Position numbers and translations under genes: made by a program. Below the pieces are notes generated by a model, which worked only from the letters and a program-made list of their open reading frames with translations, did not search any database and had not been told where the DNA came from. A DNA stretch of 64,000 bases, taken from NCBI RefSeq assembly GCF_039530225.1, contig NZ_BAAAOH010000001.1, positions 806,001-870,000 of the forward strand. Direction: 5' to 3'. The DNA comes from Microbacterium pumilum (GTDB taxonomy: Bacteria > Actinomycetota > Actinomycetes > Actinomycetales > Microbacteriaceae). Of this stretch, positions 2,532 to 18,090 are shown in pieces. Each line of letters begins with the position of its first letter. Position 1 is the first letter of the stretch.

Positions 2532-3059
2532 TCAGCGCCGCAGCTCACCCAGCGCGGCGAAGCGGAGCATGTGCGCCTGGCCGCTGTGCAGTGTGTACTC
2601 ATGCACGATCTTGATCAGCGTGTAACCCAGGGGCTGCCCATGGCCGAGGCCAGGTGAGTCGTAGGTGGCCAGCGCTGCGATGGCGGCATCCGATCGCGAG
2701 ACCTCGGCCAGGTAGCCGCGGATGTCGTCCTCGATCGTCTCGGGCCTTCCCCCCGCGTAATCGTCCTCGCCGTAGTACTCGGTGCGCTTGCCACCGCCGA
2801 GACCCCACGCCAGGTACACATGCTCCATCTGGCGCATATGCCTCACGAGGCCGAGCACCGACAGCTGGACAGGCGGCACCGACCACGCCGCCAGCTGGTC
2901 GGCGTCGAGATCTCGAAGCTTGCGCAGGAACTCGTGACGCTGATATCCCAGCCACGCGACCAGATCGCCCCTAGGGTCGCCGGTGGGCTTCGGCTGTTCG
3001 GCGGGACCGAAATCCAAGGAGTCGAGCGAATGCAGGATCACAACGACAGTCTCGCGCAC
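2532..3059 (-). CDS. DinB-family / DUF664 protein
   Basis: About 175 residues. The body (GDLVAWLGYQRHEFLRKLRD, LSVLGLVRHMRQMEHVYLAW, IVHEYTLHSGQAHMLR) is the four-helix DinB/DUF664 fold, with the metal-ligand histidines in H-x3-E-H and H-x3-H-x3-H patterns. Members include mycothiol- or bacillithiol-dependent transferases, but many are uncharacterised. The predicted first codon is GTG at 3059 with no clear ribosome-binding site; a shorter start near the proline-rich segment is possible. It is divergent from the RibD-fold reductase that starts at 3155. Confidence 0.8.
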   Translation of the reverse strand: MRETVVVILHSLDSLDFGPAEQPKPTGDPRGDLVAWLGYQRHEFLRKLRDLDADQLAAWSVPPVQLSVLGLVRHMRQMEHVYLAWGLGGGKRTEYYGEDDYAGGRPETIEDDIRGYLAEVSRSDAAIAALATYDSPGLGHGQPLGYTLIKIVHEYTLHSGQAHMLRFAALGELRR

Positions 3060-3154
3060 TTGTGCATTTCTCCGCGTGGTGTCGGAAGGCCGGTGTGCCG
3101 TTCGTAGCAGAGGTGAGCCAGCCCGCGCAGGGCGCCACAGAAGGGACCACGAGC

Positions 3155-3754
3155 ATGAAGCTGATCACCCACACCCAGATCACCGTCGACGGCGTGATGC
3201 AGGCGAACGGTGGCAACAACCCGGTACTCGATCCCGGGTTCGACCGCGGCGGATGGGCGATGCCGTTGGGCGACGATGAGTCGGTCGCCTACATCGGCGA
3301 GTGCTACCAGCGAGCCGACGCGTTCCTGTTCGGCCGGCGGACGTATGAGCTCTTCGCCGGGTACTGGGGAGTCAGGGACGACGTCGACAATCCCTTCGTC
3401 GGCTCCTTGAACTCGCGCCCGAAGTACGTCGCGTCGAACACCATCACCGACCCGGAGTGGACGGACACGACCGTGCTCTCGGGCGATCTCGAGGCGCCGA
3501 TCCGAGAGCTCAAGGCGAAGCCGGGCGGCGAGCTGCAGGTTCACGGCAGCGGTCAGCTCATCCGCTGGCTGCTCGAGCGCGAGCTCGTCGATGAGATGAC
3601 CCTGATCGTGTGCCCCGTCATCGTCGGCGCGGGCACCCGGCTGTTCCCCGAAACGGGCCGAGACTTCGCACTCCACCTGGTGGAATCGCGCAGATTCGCG
3701 ACGGGAATCCTGGCCCAGACCTACCGGCCCGCCGGACGGCCGCAGTACGCATAG
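3155..3754 (+). CDS. Dihydrofolate reductase-like RibD C-terminal domain protein
   Basis: 199 residues from the ATG at 3155 (MKLITHTQITVDGVMQANGG). AAGGGA 8 nt upstream fixes this start rather than the longer open frame. The sequence has the RibD-C/DHFR-like order: ITVDGV at the N-terminus, FLFGRRTYELFAGYW, VASNTI, then ELQVHGSGQLIRWLLERELVDEM and the final CPVIVGAGTRLF. This group of NADPH-binding reductases is very common in soil actinobacteria and most have no known substrate. A related but truncated gene lies at 5571-5876 on the other strand. Confidence 0.85.
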   Translation: MKLITHTQITVDGVMQANGGNNPVLDPGFDRGGWAMPLGDDESVAYIGECYQRADAFLFGRRTYELFAGYWGVRDDVDNPFVGSLNSRPKYVASNTITDPEWTDTTVLSGDLEAPIRELKAKPGGELQVHGSGQLIRWLLERELVDEMTLIVCPVIVGAGTRLFPETGRDFALHLVESRRFATGILAQTYRPAGRPQYA

Positions 3755-3789
3755 CGGAGCGCTCGAACGGTGGTGTCGGGACGGGGCCA

Positions 3790-3795
3790 TAAGGT
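3790..3795 (+). promoter_or_regulatory. -10 element for leaderless VOC gene
   Basis: TAAGGT (TANNNT) ends 6 nt before the ATG at 3802, with no ribosome-binding site between them. This is the expected layout of a leaderless actinobacterial transcript. Confidence 0.4.
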
Positions 3796-3801
3796 CGGGG
3801 G

Positions 3802-4197
3802 ATGGCCGGTCTCGTTCCCTATCTCCACTTCGCGGGCAGTGCGCGCGAAGCCCTCACCTTCTACCGCGACATCTTCGAGGGCGATCTGACTCTTCACACG
3901 TTCGCCGACCTGGGTCGCACGGATGGTCCGCCCGACGCGATCGGTCACGGCATCCTGCAGGGTCGCGTCGAGCTCTTCGGTGCGGATGCCGCCGACGGCG
4001 ACGTTCCGCTGGCTGTGGAGGGCATGATGTTCTCCCTGCTCGGAACAGCCGATCCGGCGACACTCGAGGACTGGTTCGCCTCGCTGTCCGCGGGTGGCAC
4101 CGTGAACGATCCCCTTCAGGTCAGACCGTGGGGGGCCCACGACGGTCAGGTGACCGATCGATACGGGCTGAGATGGCTCATCGGCTACGAGGTCTGA
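3802..4197 (+). CDS. VOC-family (PhnB-like glyoxalase fold) protein
   Basis: 131 residues: VPYLHFAGSAREALTFYRDI at the N-terminus, a HGILQGRVELFGAD strand, and FSLLGTADPATLEDWFASLS followed by GGTVNDPLQVRPWGAHDGQVTDRYGLRW. This is the PhnB-like branch of the vicinal-oxygen-chelate superfamily (paired beta-alpha-beta-beta-beta units). No substrate can be assigned; the usual metal-ligand pattern is only partly visible. It is monocistronic, with a predicted leaderless promoter. Confidence 0.85.
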   Translation: MAGLVPYLHFAGSAREALTFYRDIFEGDLTLHTFADLGRTDGPPDAIGHGILQGRVELFGADAADGDVPLAVEGMMFSLLGTADPATLEDWFASLSAGGTVNDPLQVRPWGAHDGQVTDRYGLRWLIGYEV

Positions 4198-4348
4198 CGC
4201 CTGAAACCCCACCTGGGGCCTAGGGCATCGCAGTCGGCGTCGGACGGATGACGTCCCGCTGCGGTCCATAGTGCGGCTGTGTCGGATGCCGCGAGCGCCG
4301 GCATCCTCTCGGTGAGGTCGTGCCCCTGCCGCCGCGGATCTGCCGGGC

Positions 4349-5488
4349 TCAGGCAGGTTCGCCGAGTTGACCGATCATGCGCTCGATCTCTGCAACGGCG
4401 TAGGCCGCGATCGCGCGCTGGCCTACGTCGGCGGCACTGCCGGGCTGTTCGTCGAGGTCGCCGATCACGATGATGTTCTCGTCGTTCAGCGTGTTCGCGG
4501 GCGCGGTGTAGTTGAAGCTGCCGACGATCGTGATGCACTCGTCGATGACCATCAGCTTGTGGTGGACCTTCCTGACTCCGACGCCCTTCTTGTTCATGTG
4601 CAGGTCGATGCCGGCCGCTTTGAGGGCTGCCGCCGGAGTCCAGGTCTGCCTCCCCTGCGTCCTGTCGATGATTCCCCGGATGCGCGCGAGTCCGGGACGC
4701 AGGCGGAACATGGCATCGTCGATGCCGGATGACGCGGCGAACGTGTACATCGCGAAGTCGATGCTGACCTTCGCCTTCAGCATCTGCTTGATGATCTCCA
4801 TCTCGGGACCGTGCCGAGGCGCGAACAGCGGCTTCACGCGCACATCGCCGATGCGGAACTCTTTGGGGCGCGCCTCGACTCGTTCGTGCAGCGCGCCGAA
4901 CGTCCCACTGTCACGCATCCGCTCGAACTCGTTCTGGTATTGGGATGCCGCGGTCCTACCGCGCAGGATGACGATGTGGTTCAGGTTGTTGCCCGAGGCG
5001 TCTCCGCCGTTCGCCGGGGTGTTCAGACCCGTATCGGTCAGAGTGAAATTGGTGGATCCGGTGAGCACGGCCGCGTTGTCTGTGTCGACGTCTCGAACGA
5101 TGAACTTCTGGTGGAAGATGTTCGGATTGAGGTCGGTGACGACATCCACCCCCGCGCGAAGCATCGCCGCGTGGATCTCGCGGTTCCGCTCGTTGGCGCC
5201 GCTGGGCAGCCAAGGATCCGTGAGCGGCGACTCCTCCGTCAGGTAGTCGCCCTCCAGAATCAGCTGCACCCCGAGTCGATCCTCACCGGGCTTGCGGGCG
5301 GCTTCGTGCGCAGCCTTCGCAGTGAGGATGGCGGAAGCGACCGACTTGGAGTCGAGCTCTTGCACGGCGATGGCGAGGCTGTGCTTGGTCGCGCCGATGA
5401 ACGCTCGGATGGCCGCGTCAAGATCGTCCGGCCCGCCGACGCTGCTCGGGCCGGTGTGCAACTCGAGATTGCCGACGGAAACGGACAT
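4349..5488 (-). CDS. Phospholipase D-like protein with two HKD motifs
   Basis: 379 residues with two complete PLD active-site motifs: H126-x-K128-x4-D133 (FHQKFIVRD, followed by GSTNFT) and H309-x-K311-x4-D316 (VHHKLMVID, followed by GSFNYT). Both halves needed for a composite PLD active site are therefore present. There is no signal peptide or membrane segment, so it is probably cytoplasmic. The family includes phospholipases, cardiolipin synthases, nucleases (Nuc, BfiI-like) and stand-alone DNA-damage proteins; the domain alone does not distinguish them. It stands alone between a VOC gene (convergent) and a truncated reductase on the same strand. Confidence 0.8.
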   Translation of the reverse strand: MSVSVGNLELHTGPSSVGGPDDLDAAIRAFIGATKHSLAIAVQELDSKSVASAILTAKAAHEAARKPGEDRLGVQLILEGDYLTEESPLTDPWLPSGANERNREIHAAMLRAGVDVVTDLNPNIFHQKFIVRDVDTDNAAVLTGSTNFTLTDTGLNTPANGGDASGNNLNHIVILRGRTAASQYQNEFERMRDSGTFGALHERVEARPKEFRIGDVRVKPLFAPRHGPEMEIIKQMLKAKVSIDFAMYTFAASSGIDDAMFRLRPGLARIRGIIDRTQGRQTWTPAAALKAAGIDLHMNKKGVGVRKVHHKLMVIDECITIVGSFNYTAPANTLNDENIIVIGDLDEQPGSAADVGQRAIAAYAVAEIERMIGQLGEPA

Positions 5489-13326: not shown

Positions 13327-14694
13327 CTACAGCCCGACCGCCATGTCGGTGAAGCGCGAGAAGTGGCCCTGGAATGCCACGGTCACGGTGTCCGTGGGCC
13401 CGTTGCGGTGCTTGGCGACGATCAGGTCGGCCTCGCCCGCCCGCGGGTTCTCCTTCTCGTAGGCGGCCTCGCGGTGCAGCAGGATGACCATGTCGGCATC
13501 CTGCTCGAGCGAACCCGACTCGCGGAGGTCGGACAGCGCGGGCTTCTTGTCGGCGCGCTGCTCGGGACCACGGTTCAGCTGCGACAGCGCGATGACCGGC
13601 ACACCCAGCTCCTTGGCGAGGAGCTTCAGCGCACGCGAGAACTCCGACACCTCTTGCTGGCGCGACTCGACGCGCTTGCCCGACGTCATGAGCTGGAGGT
13701 AGTCGATGACCACCATCTTGAGGCCCACGCGCTGCTTGAGCCGACGGCACTTCGCACGGATCTCGACGAGCGTCATGTTGGGGCTGTCATCGATGTAGAG
13801 CGGTGCGTCGTTGATGCGACCGCGCACCGACGCGATGGTGGTCCAGTCGCGGGAATCCAGCGTGCCCTTGCGCATCGCCTGCAGCGGCACAGATGCCTCA
13901 GCGCTCATGAGTCGCATGGCGATCTCGCTGCGGCCCATCTCGAGTGAGAAGAAGATCGTCGGCAGGGAGTGCTTGATCGCTGCCGACCTCGCGAAGTCGA
14001 GGGCGAGCGTCGACTTGCCGAGGGCGGGTCGCGCGGCGATGATGATGAGCTGACCGGGGTGCAGCCCGTTGGTGAGCTGATCCATCTGCGCGAAGCCGGT
14101 GGGCACGCCGGTCATCTGTCCGTCACGGCCTCGTGCGGCCTCGATCTCGTCGACGGCCGCATCGACCGCGATCGTCAGCGGAACGTAGTCCTCGGCGGCA
14201 TCGGCGCCCGTGACGCCGTAGATCTCCGCCTGGGCATTGTTGACGAGGTCGAGTGCCTCACCCTCGCCGGCGTAGCCCATCTGCACGATGCGCGTGCCGG
14301 CCTCGACGAGACGCCGCAGCAGCGCGCGCTCCGCGACGATCGAGGCGTAGTACCCGGCGTTCGCCGCCGTGGGCACGATCGAGGTGAGCGTGTGCAGGTA
14401 GTCGGCGCCCCCCGCACGCTGCAGCTCACCGGTCTTGATGAGCTCGTCGGTGACCGCCACGACATCGGTCGGCTCGCCATGCGAATACAGCGAGAGCACG
14501 GCCTCGAAGATCAGCTCGTGCTTGGGCACGTAGAAGTCGGTGCCGCGGAGCGATTCGATCACGTCGGCGACGGCATCCTTCGACAGCAGCATTCCGCCGA
14601 GCGCGCTCTGCTCTGCGAGCAGGTCATGAGGAGGCGTCCGCTCGTGCGTGCGGGGTCCGCCCATCCGCTCATCGGAGATGTCGGCTATCGACAT
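13327..14694 (-). CDS. dnaB: Replicative DNA helicase DnaB
   Basis: 455 residues from the ATG at 14694 (MSIADISDERMGGPRTHERT). The N-terminal primase-binding domain (PHDLLAEQSALGGMLLSKDA) is followed by the RecA-like helicase domain with Walker A ARPALGKST near residues 220-228, FFSLEMGRSEIAMRL, Walker B VVIDYLQLM and the DnaB C-terminal DLRESGSLEQDADMV. The length is normal and no intein interrupts the motifs, unlike many mycobacterial dnaB genes. It forms the hexamer that unwinds the fork on the lagging strand. Normally follows rplI; here the two are separated by the divergent surface-protein genes. Confidence 0.95.
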   Translation of the reverse strand: MSIADISDERMGGPRTHERTPPHDLLAEQSALGGMLLSKDAVADVIESLRGTDFYVPKHELIFEAVLSLYSHGEPTDVVAVTDELIKTGELQRAGGADYLHTLTSIVPTAANAGYYASIVAERALLRRLVEAGTRIVQMGYAGEGEALDLVNNAQAEIYGVTGADAAEDYVPLTIAVDAAVDEIEAARGRDGQMTGVPTGFAQMDQLTNGLHPGQLIIIAARPALGKSTLALDFARSAAIKHSLPTIFFSLEMGRSEIAMRLMSAEASVPLQAMRKGTLDSRDWTTIASVRGRINDAPLYIDDSPNMTLVEIRAKCRRLKQRVGLKMVVIDYLQLMTSGKRVESRQQEVSEFSRALKLLAKELGVPVIALSQLNRGPEQRADKKPALSDLRESGSLEQDADMVILLHREAAYEKENPRAGEADLIVAKHRNGPTDTVTVAFQGHFSRFTDMAVGL

Positions 14695-14772
14695 GTGCAG
14701 TGTCCTCCACGCGGTATTCGGGCAATCCTGGTGCGGCCGGCGGGTGCGCGCGGGCATGCGCGAGCACGGTCA

Positions 14773-14800
14773 TGCATCGGATGCCGCAGCATCCGATGCA
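14773..14800. repeat. Perfect 12-bp hairpin upstream of dnaB
   Basis: Arms 14773-14784 and 14789-14800 (TGCATCGGATGC and its complement) with a CGCA loop. It lies 79 nt upstream of the dnaB start, has no T-run, and is built from the GGATGC motif common in this genome. It could be a protein site or an RNA structure in the dnaB leader. Confidence 0.6.
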
Positions 14801-14913
14801 GTCCCATATCAGTGGAGCATCATCCACCGACATCGTCCACGCCGACGTGCGGTGCGGTCCTCCCCGGGCCGGACCCCACGCTAGAGAGCGGGTATTCGAT
14901 GTGCAACTCGGCC

Positions 14914-15111
14914 TGTGGATAAGTCTGTGGAATGTATGCGCGAAACGCCGGGAAGCCTGTGCACAACCCCTGTGGAGAGTCTCTCGGCGATGGCGGATCG
15001 CGATCGAGGTTCTTCGATCTGATCAGGGATTCTAGATTTCACAGCTTGTGGATGGCGATGTGGTTGAAGTACGGCTTGAAGGTTCCGTCGATGACCGCGA
15101 CCTGTGCACAA
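14914..15111. promoter_or_regulatory. Cluster of DnaA-box-like sites upstream of dnaB
   Basis: A perfect box TGTGGATAA at 14914-14922 (complement of TTATCCACA), then near-matches TGTGGAATG 14926-14934, TGTGCACAA 14958-14966, TGTGGAGAG 14971-14979, TGTGGATGG 15047-15055 and a second TGTGCACAA 15103-15111. The 11-mer CCTGTGCACAA occurs twice. Most share one orientation. A DnaA-dependent control or titration site is inferred. Confidence 0.5.
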
Positions 15112-15276
15112 AGTACGCCCCCGATGCGCAGCCACCGACGGTGCGGCGAGCGCCGGAGTCGACAGGGGCATAGACAGACGTCGCGGCAGACGTTATCGTC
15201 TTCAGAGATCCAGGCACCCCGTTTGACGCGATCACATCGCTGCTCGCGTGACGTTCTTCGTCGCACAGGAGGTGAC

Positions 15277-16242
15277 ATGGACCCCGAGGCAATCAGCCCG
15301 CAGCCGAACATCCGGCGACTGCTGTTCGTCGCCGTCGGCGTCGCATTCGCCTGGGTGCTGCTCACGCTCGCGATGGGTGTCGGCTCGTCCGGCGCCCGCG
15401 CTGAGCAGACGGATGACGGGGGTGCCCTCTCACGCGTGAGTTCGGTCATGGATGAGACCACCGATGCCGTGACGGATACCGGAGCCGCCGCGACCGTTGC
15501 GATATCACACGCCACCAGCTCTGTTCCGCCGGCCCCGCCCGCGCAGGTGCCGATCGTGGCAGCCGTCGTCGATACGGTCGCACCCATCGTCGAAACAGTC
15601 ACCTCGACGGTGAACGACACCGTCGCACCGGGAGTGGTGGCCCCGATCGTCGCGCCGGTGGTGGAGGTCGTATCGGCCGTCCCCGCCGTGGGCGACGTCG
15701 TCTCGGAAACCGCACTCGATCAGGCCCTTCCCGCCGCTGCGGCCGATGTGGACGAGACGCTGCGGCACCTCATTTCGACGGTGACCGACACCGTGGGCGG
15801 TGTGATCCCTCCCCTTCCGTCGGTGCTTCCGTCGCTTCCGGATGTCGCAGCGCCGACGGAGATGCACCCGTCCACCAGCACGGGATCGCGTGCCACGCCG
15901 ACGGACTCCGCGGGCACGGTCACCGCCGGCACCCTCACGGACTCGTGGTCGCCCGCTGGGTGGACGGTCGTGCGCACGCTCACCGCGGGCATGGCGGCCA
16001 TGACGACCCTCGCTCTTTCGCCCGAGTTCGAACTCGGCTCAGCCGAACAGCCTCTTCCCCTCGGTGCGGCTCTGCCGGCCGATCTGCTCTCCATGGGATC
16101 CAGCGGTGCGGGTCCCGGCGTCTGGGGCATGCTCGCCCTCGCGTTCTTCGTTGCATACCGTGCCTGGGTGCTGCGCAAGACCGGCGAGAACGCCGACGCT
16201 CCTGCGGCGCCCCTGCTCGGCACCGACGTCTCTCCCGACTGA
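15277..16242 (+). CDS. Thr/Val/Pro-rich membrane-anchored surface protein, unknown function
   Basis: 321 residues from the ATG at 15277, preceded by AGGAGGT. The N-terminal hydrophobic segment (about 14-36, ending GARAEQ) looks like a signal peptide. Residues about 45-200 are low-complexity with recurring VVDTVAPIVETV-, VAPIVAPVVEVV- and TVTDTVGGV-like blocks, and the middle is rich in Ser/Thr/Pro. A C-terminal membrane segment (GMLALAFFVAYRAWVL) precedes a short RKTGEN tail; there is no LPXTG/LAXTG signal. I do not recognise a domain. It lies 86 nt before the chaplin-like gene on the same strand, so a shared surface role is likely but inferred. Confidence 0.7.
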   Translation: MDPEAISPQPNIRRLLFVAVGVAFAWVLLTLAMGVGSSGARAEQTDDGGALSRVSSVMDETTDAVTDTGAAATVAISHATSSVPPAPPAQVPIVAAVVDTVAPIVETVTSTVNDTVAPGVVAPIVAPVVEVVSAVPAVGDVVSETALDQALPAAAADVDETLRHLISTVTDTVGGVIPPLPSVLPSLPDVAAPTEMHPSTSTGSRATPTDSAGTVTAGTLTDSWSPAGWTVVRTLTAGMAAMTTLALSPEFELGSAEQPLPLGAALPADLLSMGSSGAGPGVWGMLALAFFVAYRAWVLRKTGENADAPAAPLLGTDVSPD

Positions 16243-16328
16243 TCGGAACCCGCCGCCGAACGCTGGCGGCCGAGTTCACCCGCGCGCGCTGCGCGCGGCA
16301 TCCGATCCCCAGTCAATAGGAGACAACC

Positions 16329-17294
16329 ATGCATACCTTCATCACGCGCGCCCTCTTGGGCACGCTGCTCGCCGGCGGCATCACGCTGCTCGGTGCTACG
16401 GTCGCCAACGCGGCCGAGACAACAGTCGACGACGGACTGGTGTCCGGCACGCAGGCCCTCATCGACATCCAAGCTCCGGTCACGATCGCCGGAAACGCCA
16501 TCTCGGTGATCGGCGACAGCTCGTCGACCGCACCGGCGCCCGCTCCCGCCCCGGCTCCGGCTTCAGCGCCGGCAGCGACAACGAGCGGCAACCACGGCAT
16601 CGGCTCGGGAACGCAGGCGATCGTCACGGTCGCCGTGCCCATCACCGTGTCGGACAACGCCATCTCGGTGATCGGCGACAGCTCGTCGACCGCACCGGCG
16701 CCGGCGCCGGCTCCCGTGGCCGCCGCGGCACCCTCTGCGTCGACGGAGGGCGATGACAGCATCCTCGGCGGCACCCAGGTCATCGCGCCCGTCGCGGTGC
16801 CCGTCACCGTCAGCGGGAACGCCATCTCGGTCATCGGCGACAGCAGCGCCGCCTCGGCCACGGAAGGCGCCCCGGCACCCGGAACGACACCCCCGCCGGT
16901 CGGTGGCGCCACGAGCGGTGACGACAGCATCCTCGGCGGCACCCAGGTGATCGCACCGATCACCGCCCCCTCCACTGTCACCGGCAACGCCATCGCGATC
17001 ATCGGTGAATCAATCACCGAGACGGTCGTCGTGCCGGCCGTCTCGACGGAGCCCACCGAGCCGACGGTTCCCGCGAACCCGACCGATCCCACCGAGCCGA
17101 CCGTGCGTGACAGCACGACCGACTCCGTAACGGCTGTCGGCACCGACGGAACGATCGTCGGGGCGAAGGCTTCGACCACCGCGACTCAGCTCGCCGCAAC
17201 AGGAGGACCGAACGCGCTGGTCGCGCTGCTGATGAGTGTCGGGCTCATCGCAGCAGGCCTGACGGCGCGCGTCCTGCGGCGCCGCTCCGCGTGA
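16329..17294 (+). CDS. Chaplin-like four-repeat cell-wall protein with LAXTG sortase signal
   Basis: 321 residues. Signal peptide 1-29 (ends VANAAE). Four repeats at about residues 35-64, 89-118, 143-172 and 199-228, each of the form (S/G)GTQ-hydrophobic-P-x-T-V-(S/T)GNAISVIGDS; this resembles the chaplin domain (DUF320: SGNxVxxPxxxPVxxCGNxxxVIG) but lacks the cysteines. Ala/Pro linkers separate the repeats, and a Thr/Pro/Glu stalk (about 230-285) follows. LAATG at 288-292, a membrane segment (295-315) and RVLRRRSA form a class E sortase signal, as in the long chaplins of Streptomyces. Repeats 1/2 share a nearly 50-nt identical stretch 162 nt apart, showing recent duplication. Surface-active or amyloid role is inferred. 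Confidence 0.7.
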   Translation: MHTFITRALLGTLLAGGITLLGATVANAAETTVDDGLVSGTQALIDIQAPVTIAGNAISVIGDSSSTAPAPAPAPAPASAPAATTSGNHGIGSGTQAIVTVAVPITVSDNAISVIGDSSSTAPAPAPAPVAAAAPSASTEGDDSILGGTQVIAPVAVPVTVSGNAISVIGDSSAASATEGAPAPGTTPPPVGGATSGDDSILGGTQVIAPITAPSTVTGNAIAIIGESITETVVVPAVSTEPTEPTVPANPTDPTEPTVRDSTTDSVTAVGTDGTIVGAKASTTATQLAATGGPNALVALLMSVGLIAAGLTARVLRRRSA

Positions 17295-17299
17295 CGTCA

Positions 17300-17329
17300 G
17301 GGTGGCGGCGTGCCCCAGCGCCGCCACCC
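17300..17329 (+). terminator. Hairpin 1 behind the chaplin-like gene
   Basis: Perfect 11-bp stem (GGGTGGCGGCG, 17300-17310, with 17319-17329) and an 8-nt loop, 5 nt after the chaplin-like stop codon. No T-run. Probable terminator of the surface-protein transcript. Confidence 0.6.
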
Positions 17330-17344
17330 GACTCCGCGTGAGCA

Positions 17345-17377
17345 GGCGGGAGCGCCGTACCCAGCGGCGCTCCCGCC
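17345..17377. terminator. Hairpin 2 of the 17.3-17.6 kb array
   Basis: Perfect 13-bp stem (GGCGGGAGCGCCG, 17345-17357, with 17365-17377) and a 7-nt loop. GC-rich, no T-run; could work from either strand. Confidence 0.5.
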
Positions 17378-17396
17378 CCATCAACCCCCTCGTACT

Positions 17397-17434
17397 CGCG
17401 GGAGGGCCGCCATGCCTGGATCGGCCCTCCCGCG
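17397..17434. terminator. Hairpin 3 of the 17.3-17.6 kb array
   Basis: Perfect 12-bp stem (CGCGGGAGGGCC, 17397-17408, with 17423-17434) and a 14-nt loop. Different sequence from its neighbours. Confidence 0.5.
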
Positions 17435-17450
17435 TCATGCCGCTGGGGAG

Positions 17451-17637: not shown

Positions 17638-18090
17638 TTACTTCGCGGCGACCACCGTCAGCGTGATCACGGCGGTGAGGTCGTCGCGGAGGCGAACGGT
17701 CGCCTCGTGCTCGCCCACCGACTTGATCGGAGAGGTGATGTGGATCTTGCGCTTGTCGAGGTCACCGAGACCGGCGGCCTTGACCGCGTCGGCCACGTGC
17801 TCGGTCTTGACCGAGCCGAACAGGCGACCTTCGGAACCCGCCTTGACGACGAGCTTGACCTTGTTCGACTCGAGGGCGTCCTTGAGCGCAACGGCCTCGT
17901 CGTGGTCGTGGATGGCACGCGTGTCGCGGGCCGCGCGAATCGACGCGACCTGCTTCTCGCCACCGCGGGTCCACCGGACGGCGAAACCCTGGGGGATGAG
18001 GTAGTTGCGGGCGTACCCGTCCTTGACCTCGATCACGTCACCGGCAGAGCCCAGCCCGGCGACCTCGTTCGTGAGAATCAGCTTCGACAT
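17638..18090 (-). CDS. rplI: 50S ribosomal protein L9
   Basis: 150 residues, normal bacterial L9 length: [40 protein letters not shown], a central connecting helix, and the C-terminal domain [20 protein letters not shown] with [17 protein letters not shown]. It binds 23S rRNA at the base of the L1 stalk. It is the last gene of the rpsF-ssb-rpsR-rplI operon, 9 nt after rpsR. A 16-bp hairpin follows the stop. Confidence 0.97.

Follow-up and report, generated by a model that had tools for sequence, protein, structure and literature searches.

Two kinds of described system come closest to the locus reported here. The first is the chaplins, whose domains typically carry two cysteines and three GN motifs at a spacing of 12-13 residues; the available portions of two reports describe ChpE and the second ChpB domain as lacking cysteines (PMC5618241, PMC13251363). 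A chaplin-like gene occurs in the non-sporulating rod-coccus Arthrobacter chlorophenolicus, and the accessible part of the same source proposes surface attachment as a possible older role of chaplins (PMC4255298). The second is translational coupling by RNA unfolding, which, as far as the available text of PMC12548453 describes it, operates in Escherichia coli rpmI-rplT at +52 nt, a gap that leaves room for a second ribosome. Here we describe a two-gene locus of Microbacterium pumilum in which a partner gene and a gene for a cysteine-free chaplin-type surface protein are separated by a predicted RNA structure, the junction RNA. The locus lies in a stretch of 64,000 nucleotides (the window; contig NZ_BAAAOH010000001.1, positions 806,001 to 870,000). 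Its host genus is not filamentous, and cysteine-free chaplin relatives behind such a partner occur in many rod-shaped bacteria of soil. The two genes, the chaplin-type domain, and a predicted RNA structure with covariation, in which the partner stop codon and the downstream Shine-Dalgarno sequence are paired, can be read from the sequence. The locus is probably a two-gene operon encoding the partner and a sortase E-anchored, Cys-free coat protein or adhesin, with their translation coupled through RNA unfolding.

Results

The partner stop codon and the downstream Shine-Dalgarno sequence are predicted to pair

Both genes are on the + strand, the partner gene at 15277-16242 (321 aa, preceded by a Shine-Dalgarno sequence, AGGAGG, at 15267-15272) and the surface protein gene at 16329-17294 (321 aa, comprising a signal peptide, four Cys-free chaplin-type repeats, a Pro/Thr stalk, and LAATG followed by a transmembrane stretch and RRR). 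The end of the partner gene and the interval behind it are predicted to form an intercistronic three-way-junction RNA (16228-16324, + strand; minimum-free-energy fold z -4.7, covariance model match E 1.2e-8, with covariation), which is the central conserved feature of the locus and had gone unnoticed in the preliminary description. Its closing stem P1 is composed of three segments (16228-16233/16319-16324, 16237-16240/16311-16314, and 16241-16247/16301-16307) and encloses the arms P2 (16248-16275) and P3 (16280-16298), all on the + strand. The partner stop codon TGA (16240-16242) is within P1, and the Shine-Dalgarno sequence of the surface gene, AGGAGA (16318-16323), is in the 3' strand of P1. 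In single-sequence folds, P1 and the two arms recur in very different sequences, and the fold z ranged from -3.3 to -8.8 in all 12 sites that were folded with shuffles.

For the comparison of relatives, 80 of 87 loci in genome contigs were kept; three that were cut off (L022, L054, and L085) were set aside, and two (L021 and L084) contain only the end of the partner. A total of 78 sites, 77 loci plus the window, was examined, with 78-134 nt between the end of the partner open reading frame (ORF) and the surface gene. The partner stop codon was paired with the region preceding the surface start codon in 78/78 sites, and the Shine-Dalgarno sequence was paired with the end of the partner in 75/78. 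By a fixed-offset metric, both pairings were found in 76/78 sites. Among 690 random windows the share was 10.6%, and of 38 stop-to-start sites elsewhere in these loci only 1 had both. When the 3' strands were swapped among sites, the mean pairing weakened from -23.9 to -19.4 kcal/mol, and none of 10000 permutations reached the observed value.

The partner tail follows the pattern DDxLPxSPVxDTDxSPD, with the exceptions of L047 (APD) and of L056 and L059 (SRPD). Position and a terminal P-D or P-E served to choose the partner ORFs, so the uniformity of the P-D ending partly reflects this selection; blastp clustering without the tail condition groups the partner of the window with 59 loci. The proline at position -2 is encoded by CCT in 50 and by CCC in 25 of 75 partners, whereas in the gene bodies CCT accounts for 7.7% and CCG is the most frequent codon. 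The end CCT-GAC-TGA has its complement at the Shine-Dalgarno site of the surface gene, and the tail proline is constant because its codon, CCY, pairs with the GG of the Shine-Dalgarno sequence. The proline -2 codon is an anti-Shine-Dalgarno. It could be argued instead that the tail (DDxLPxSP..DTDxSPD) acts only as a protein signal, with the RNA pairing arising incidentally, as residues D-17, D-16, L-14, P-13, and P-10 are conserved upstream of P1. We regard this as barely credible, because the codons at -2 and -3 are far from the usage of the genes themselves, both strands covary, and in other families the stem persists with A or G as the last residue.

Covariation of the junction RNA in five families

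Owing to variation in helix length, no consensus structure emerged when the junctions with a gap ≤108 nt (58 of 78) were aligned by MAFFT; a 17-sequence junction alignment was also set aside. The first covariance model was built from 10 sequences (nine Agromyces and one Microbacterium) and excluded the window, for which it gave the E-value cited above; it also matched a Janibacter site, from another family, at 3.5e-5. At E ≤10 it produced 114 matches covering 73/78 sites and missing L038, L043, L056, L063, and L088. Some of the matches were weak or on the minus strand, the latter reflecting the near self-complementarity of the structure. The covariation count and a second model, R2, used the 48 matches at E ≤2.5e-5, all of which are at the junction, and the 66 weaker ones were dropped. 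Across these 48 sites, aligned to the model structure, 90.6% of cells pair, and double changes are seen in 23 of 29 pairs; there are 187 double-change cells, compared with 56.5±5.9 after shuffling and at most 29 after sliding.

R2 was built from the 48 sites (Microbacteriaceae or metagenome-assembled genomes [MAGs]) with the window included. Applied to 297 genomes of the order, it found 38 sites, which are spread over 35 genomes and five families (f1, f2, f4, f76, and f81). About 15 chance matches are expected at E ≤0.05 per genome over 297 genomes, if the rough E-values hold, and proof for these sites therefore comes from genomic context: a partner-type tail precedes 37/38 of them, 36 by the pattern and L144 with SRPD, the miss being L181. 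Outside the training family there were 21 sites, counted without the second G554 site, one G471 site, and L181. Both pairings were kept in 20 of the 21, and the double changes, found in 24 of 29 pairs, amounted to 127 cells, compared with 39.9±4.7 after shuffling and at most 32 after sliding.

In the genus of the window, the element was present in 130 of 198 genomes (136 sites), and the partner tail precedes all of the 60 sites that were fetched from places spread down the ranking of the 136. Under stricter filters, which lose weak matches, a phylum-wide sample of 296 genomes contained 4 with a match at E ≤0.01, all in the order, and eight canonical-chaplin genomes contained no junction RNA match at that threshold. 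Rfam 15 gave only two chance matches to window positions 16100-16500 (401 bases) at E ≤10, and with 20 relatives at E ≤0.1 it gave three, all below the gathering threshold and none at the junction; the junction RNA is uncatalogued in Rfam 15.

Additional copies were seen in individual genomes. A degenerate second partner tail, with the RNA and a broken surface-gene start, lies upstream of the intact copy in L087 (positions 3000-4560; also in L245), and the copy in L087 was detected by the RNA model and not by protein similarity. In genome G554, two apparently identical cassettes (L178 and L179) are near both ends of one 3.67 Mb contig; they share the partner tail, and their surface proteins are equal in length with the same printed ends, so the duplication might reflect terminal repeats or an overlap in the assembly.

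Coupling alone would not call for a three-way junction and its two conserved hairpin arms, and the arm helices have been maintained through many double changes. Both points favor the possibility that the junction RNA binds a protein or a ligand, or senses heat, and by itself switches the surface gene on and off, the stop codon being included only by neighborhood. We consider this unlikely, as a plain alignment of 58 sites, poor in the arms, has no strongly conserved set of unpaired positions such as a ligand pocket needs and has most of its invariant columns in P1 or the start codon. Moreover, the position of the stop codon at the stem holds for the window and 77 loci irrespective of the stop used, with the stem still predicted in the 5 of 21 sites outside the training family where the stop codon is TAG.

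A model for coupled translation of the two genes

From this arrangement we infer co-transcription, translational coupling, wall anchoring, and a hydrophobic or adhesive coat role. The operon would yield a secreted or membrane-held partner plus a wall-covering, sortase E-anchored protein of the long-chaplin type. Its intercistronic mRNA would fold so that P1 pairs the last codons and stop codon of the partner with the Shine-Dalgarno sequence of the surface gene, and while the partner is untranslated the ribosome-binding site of the surface gene would stay closed. A ribosome terminating on the partner would cover the 5' strand of P1 and thereby free the Shine-Dalgarno sequence, to which a new ribosome could bind to start the surface protein. 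The ribosome footprint is about 30 nt, and the 5' strand of P1 (16228-16247) is inside the reach of a ribosome terminating at 16240-16242, while the freed Shine-Dalgarno sequence is about 80 nt away, so that a second ribosome can bind. By prediction and covariation, the structure reaches into the upstream gene and closes the downstream ribosome-binding site, as RNA unfolding requires.

Several observations weigh against the proposed coupling of a partner to a sortase E-anchored coat protein. The pairing of the Shine-Dalgarno sequence with the end of the partner is not clear in L048, L055, and L088, and in L139, the one site outside the training family that does not keep both pairings, the same is true of the pairing of the partner stop codon. 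A strand duplex of ≤-20 kcal/mol was found in 63/78 sites and in 46% of 6000 random pairs, and strand-duplex energy was dropped as evidence because random GC-rich pairs often score equally. Both covariation alignments were fitted to the model structure and lean toward it, and the first took 48 of the 78 sites. The residues conserved in the partner tail upstream of P1 point to selection or a role at the protein level too. According to the available part of PMC10666635, termination-reinitiation in the six gene pairs tested there was almost lost with a gap of about 20 nt; as this mode needs very short gaps, reinitiation by the same ribosome is unlikely here, and the case rests on RNA unfolding. 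On the protein side, a sortase E was found (by eye) in 35/35 RNA-bearing genomes and also in 261/297 genomes of the order, which makes the co-occurrence uninformative, and the AlphaFold model of the surface protein (predicted local distance difference test score 49.6) is too poor for judging its fold.

A consensus scan of 14800-17450 gave two promoter-like sites, compared with a mean of 0.1 in shuffles, one upstream of the partner gene (15171-15199, + strand) and the second on the - strand; by the same kind of scan there were none in the interval between the partner and surface genes and no terminator-like sites in 14800-17450. A stable stem without terminator-like sites would suit an element for processing or stability, through which the surface mRNA would acquire a protected 5' end and a dose different from that of the partner, and wall proteins are often required in excess. 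For such an element, burying the Shine-Dalgarno sequence is unnecessary, yet it is paired in 75/78 sites, and we judge this explanation very improbable.

The surface protein carries truncated, cysteine-free chaplin-type repeats

The preliminary description had presented the surface protein as having four copies of a chaplin-like motif without the chaplin cysteines, and each of these points was borne out. Repeat 1 (GTQ..P..GNAISVIG) is at 16434-16535 and repeats 2 to 4 are at 16596-16697, 16758-16859, and 16926-17027, all on the + strand, and the protein contains no Cys. PF03777 (chaplin) matched the protein with 40.9 bits over four stretches (Pfam cut-off 21), and hhalign aligned the four repeats with 14 canonical chaplin domains at E 3.2e-8 and a probability of 95%, these domains having been drawn from eight large genomes that appear Streptomyces-like judging by their many Cys-bearing chaplins. 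Together with the 211 related proteins described below, these scores exclude a chance resemblance to chaplins. Of the three chaplin GN motifs, the first is GT(Q) in the window repeats, the second is GN (DN in repeat 2), and the third is absent, so that the canonical set of three is not present. Another residue replaces the Cys before GN, and the final third of the chaplin domain, with the third GN and the second Cys, is absent.

The homologue search scored the 7998 candidates sharing most words and gave 211 relatives at E ≤1e-3, the window's own protein included. Among the matches listed (120 of the 211), named relatives are mostly Microbacteriaceae, plus a Pseudarthrobacter and a Lapillicoccus, and several already carry the NCBI names 'chaplin family protein' or 'DUF320'. 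These 120 proteins have no Cys in 98 cases, one in 18, and two in 4, and none of their 429 repeat motifs has a Cys at the chaplin C-G-N place. Loss of the cysteines has a precedent, since ChpE and the second ChpB domain are described without them.

The grand average of hydropathy (GRAVY) was 0.84 for the four repeats (34 aa) and 0.50 for the 14 canonical domains (54-57 aa, leader residues included). By an amyloid scale there are aggregation-prone stretches, which are a hint only, and a comparison with solved structures gave no useful match. Family and composition suggest a possible hydrophobic or amyloid coat role, and the surface coat in non-filamentous cells proposed in the preliminary description is plausible.

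The displayed repeat varies behind a conserved partner and RNA

At 60 genus sites, judged by eye from the first 75 residues, a chaplin-type protein was found downstream in 52, other repeats in 3 (L241, L249, and L257), and nothing intact in 4 (L222, L245, L247, and L259); in L258, an intact partner tail and RNA are followed by a 66-aa protein without repeats, its features limited to signal-like and membrane stretches. An LAxTG or LPxTG anchor was present in 47 of the 56 complete downstream ORFs at genus sites. The same partner and RNA also precede an acidic VGDDG-type repeat protein with an LATTG end (L131 and L185, of the same genus), acidic repeats with an LPQTG end (L140 and L186), NGNG repeats (L139), and still different repeats (L130, L134, L135, L137, and others). 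The signal peptides at the start of intact downstream ORFs are alike and resemble M[RHN]T..RRAL..L.[AT]GG; the regular expression for such starts was loose, and its counts were not relied on. The downstream ORF is short in L094, L143, L177, and L181. In two of these cases (L094 in genome G008 and L177 in G471), a paralogous partner tail and RNA are followed by short ORFs with IGNWPDPM motifs, and each genome has a second site (L182 and L141, respectively) with a signal-peptide-bearing ORF downstream.

The occurrence of varied repeats behind one partner and RNA indicates that the conserved unit consists of the partner, the RNA, the signal peptide, and usually the anchor. The chaplin-type system of the preliminary description was therefore correct as to the chaplin repeats, which are real, but too narrow, the chaplin type being only one of several repeat types. 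As a proposal that we hold to be evenly poised, the order may have a surface-coat exchange system in which the partner, the RNA gate, and the signal peptide stay while the displayed repeat (chaplin-type, VGDDG-type, NGNG-type, or none) is swapped. A ribosome that completes the partner would license whichever surface protein follows, at a fixed ratio, and the C-terminal codons of the partner would be the anti-Shine-Dalgarno lock. Such an exchange would fit a surface under diversifying selection, for adhesion or for avoidance of phages or grazers.

The unrelated repeats found at the same junction (L131/L185, L139, L140, L241, and L249), like the absence of cysteines and of the last third of the chaplin domain, also favor the view of the surface protein as an ordinary repeat adhesin or stalk whose likeness to chaplins is uninformative about an amyloid or hydrophobic coating. 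The profile match at E 3.2e-8 and the higher average hydrophobicity of the repeats (GRAVY 0.84 versus 0.50 for the canonical domains) argue the other way, and we give the ordinary adhesin slightly less than an even prospect.

The partner protein

The partner protein (321 aa) has a signal sequence, a long Val/Pro/Thr-rich middle, a C-terminal hydrophobic stretch, and a short tail that ends in GTDVSPD. It belongs to no Pfam or NCBIfam family; scattered Pfam matches were found in 1-2 of 41 partner members each, and the named homologues among the matches listed are annotated as 'hypothetical protein'. A partner-type ORF is directly upstream on the same strand in 77/77 loci with upstream sequence, so the two-gene locus raised in the preliminary description does recur across relatives. 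The likeliest job of the partner is that of a co-assembled wall or membrane component.

Sorting signal and sortases

The class E-type sorting signal at 17190-17291 (+ strand) comprises LAATG (17190-17204), a hydrophobic membrane stretch, and RRR (tail RRRSA), in agreement with the sortase-E-type signal described earlier, although NF058582 (the NCBIfam LAVTG signal) scored it at 20.2 bits, below the cut-off of 27. A class E sortase, whose presence in the genome had been suggested as a check, was found once (NF033747, 234 bits; cut-off 160). Anchoring of the surface protein to the wall by sortase E is likely. This sortase gene, the only one of class E found, is near the cassette, at contig positions ~876964-877773, about 7 kb past the end of the window. 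There are three further sortases in the genome, all class F-like, of which one passes the cut-off; a class F-like sortase (match at 1778649) starts about 200 bases after an LAVTG-type signal (1778344-1778442, 27.2 bits).

Genomic setting

As first described, the two + strand ORFs lie between rplI (17638-18090, - strand) and dnaB (13327-14757, - strand), opposite to both. This setting is true of the window but is a property of the genus Microbacterium, as other genera house the pair elsewhere. Both dnaB and rplI were visible as flanks in 27 loci (26 Microbacterium and 1 MAG), and dnaB alone was visible beside the pair in 2 further loci. The 51 loci that show neither include none titled Microbacterium, and in Agromyces, Herbiconiux, and others the gene pair has different neighbors of their own. 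We therefore consider the rplI-dnaB insertion a genus trait outside the system proper.

Discussion

The results reported above describe a sequence-defined RNA element that occurs in one order, in five of its families, has a function open to direct testing, and is attached to a surface protein family outside filamentous bacteria. A survey of the chaplin literature and of that on coupling and junction RNAs, made by titles and abstract openings and mostly without subscription papers, turned up no account of the gene pair or the RNA among the papers listed. The system would illustrate how rod-shaped cells come to have chaplin-type coats and bears on the idea that attachment preceded aerial growth as a chaplin role. 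It would also be a strong natural case of RNA-unfolding coupling across an extended gap; how far this mechanism can reach is debated.

The long chaplins ChpA-C of Streptomyces coelicolor (PF03777) resemble the surface protein in having a signal peptide, repeated chaplin domains, and an LAxTG class E signal. They differ in having two full domains, whereas the window protein has four truncated, Cys-free ones, and the cassette here includes a dedicated partner gene and a junction RNA. The hosts of the cassette, unlike Streptomyces, are not filamentous. ChpE and the second ChpB domain, in the available descriptions, share Cys-free chaplin domains with the window protein, a likeness by description and not residue by residue; ChpE is short and has no sortase signal, unlike the window protein. 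The Arthrobacter chlorophenolicus case has the chaplin-like protein in common with ours, and the portion of that report available mentions neither a partner nor an RNA (PMC4255298). CwpA and CwpB of Actinoplanes missouriensis are, in the available part of PMC13251363, SrtE-anchored hydrophobic wall proteins outside Streptomyces; they differ in lacking a chaplin domain and in having a filamentous host.

With respect to coupling, upstream translation in E. coli rpmI-rplT, phage f1 VII-IX, and MS2 coat-lysis unfolds the structure that covers the ribosome-binding site downstream (PMC12548453, in the text available), as we propose here. What sets the present system apart from those coupled pairs is a long three-way junction with the stop codon inside its stem, the gap of 78-134 nt over the 78 sites, and its presence in five families.

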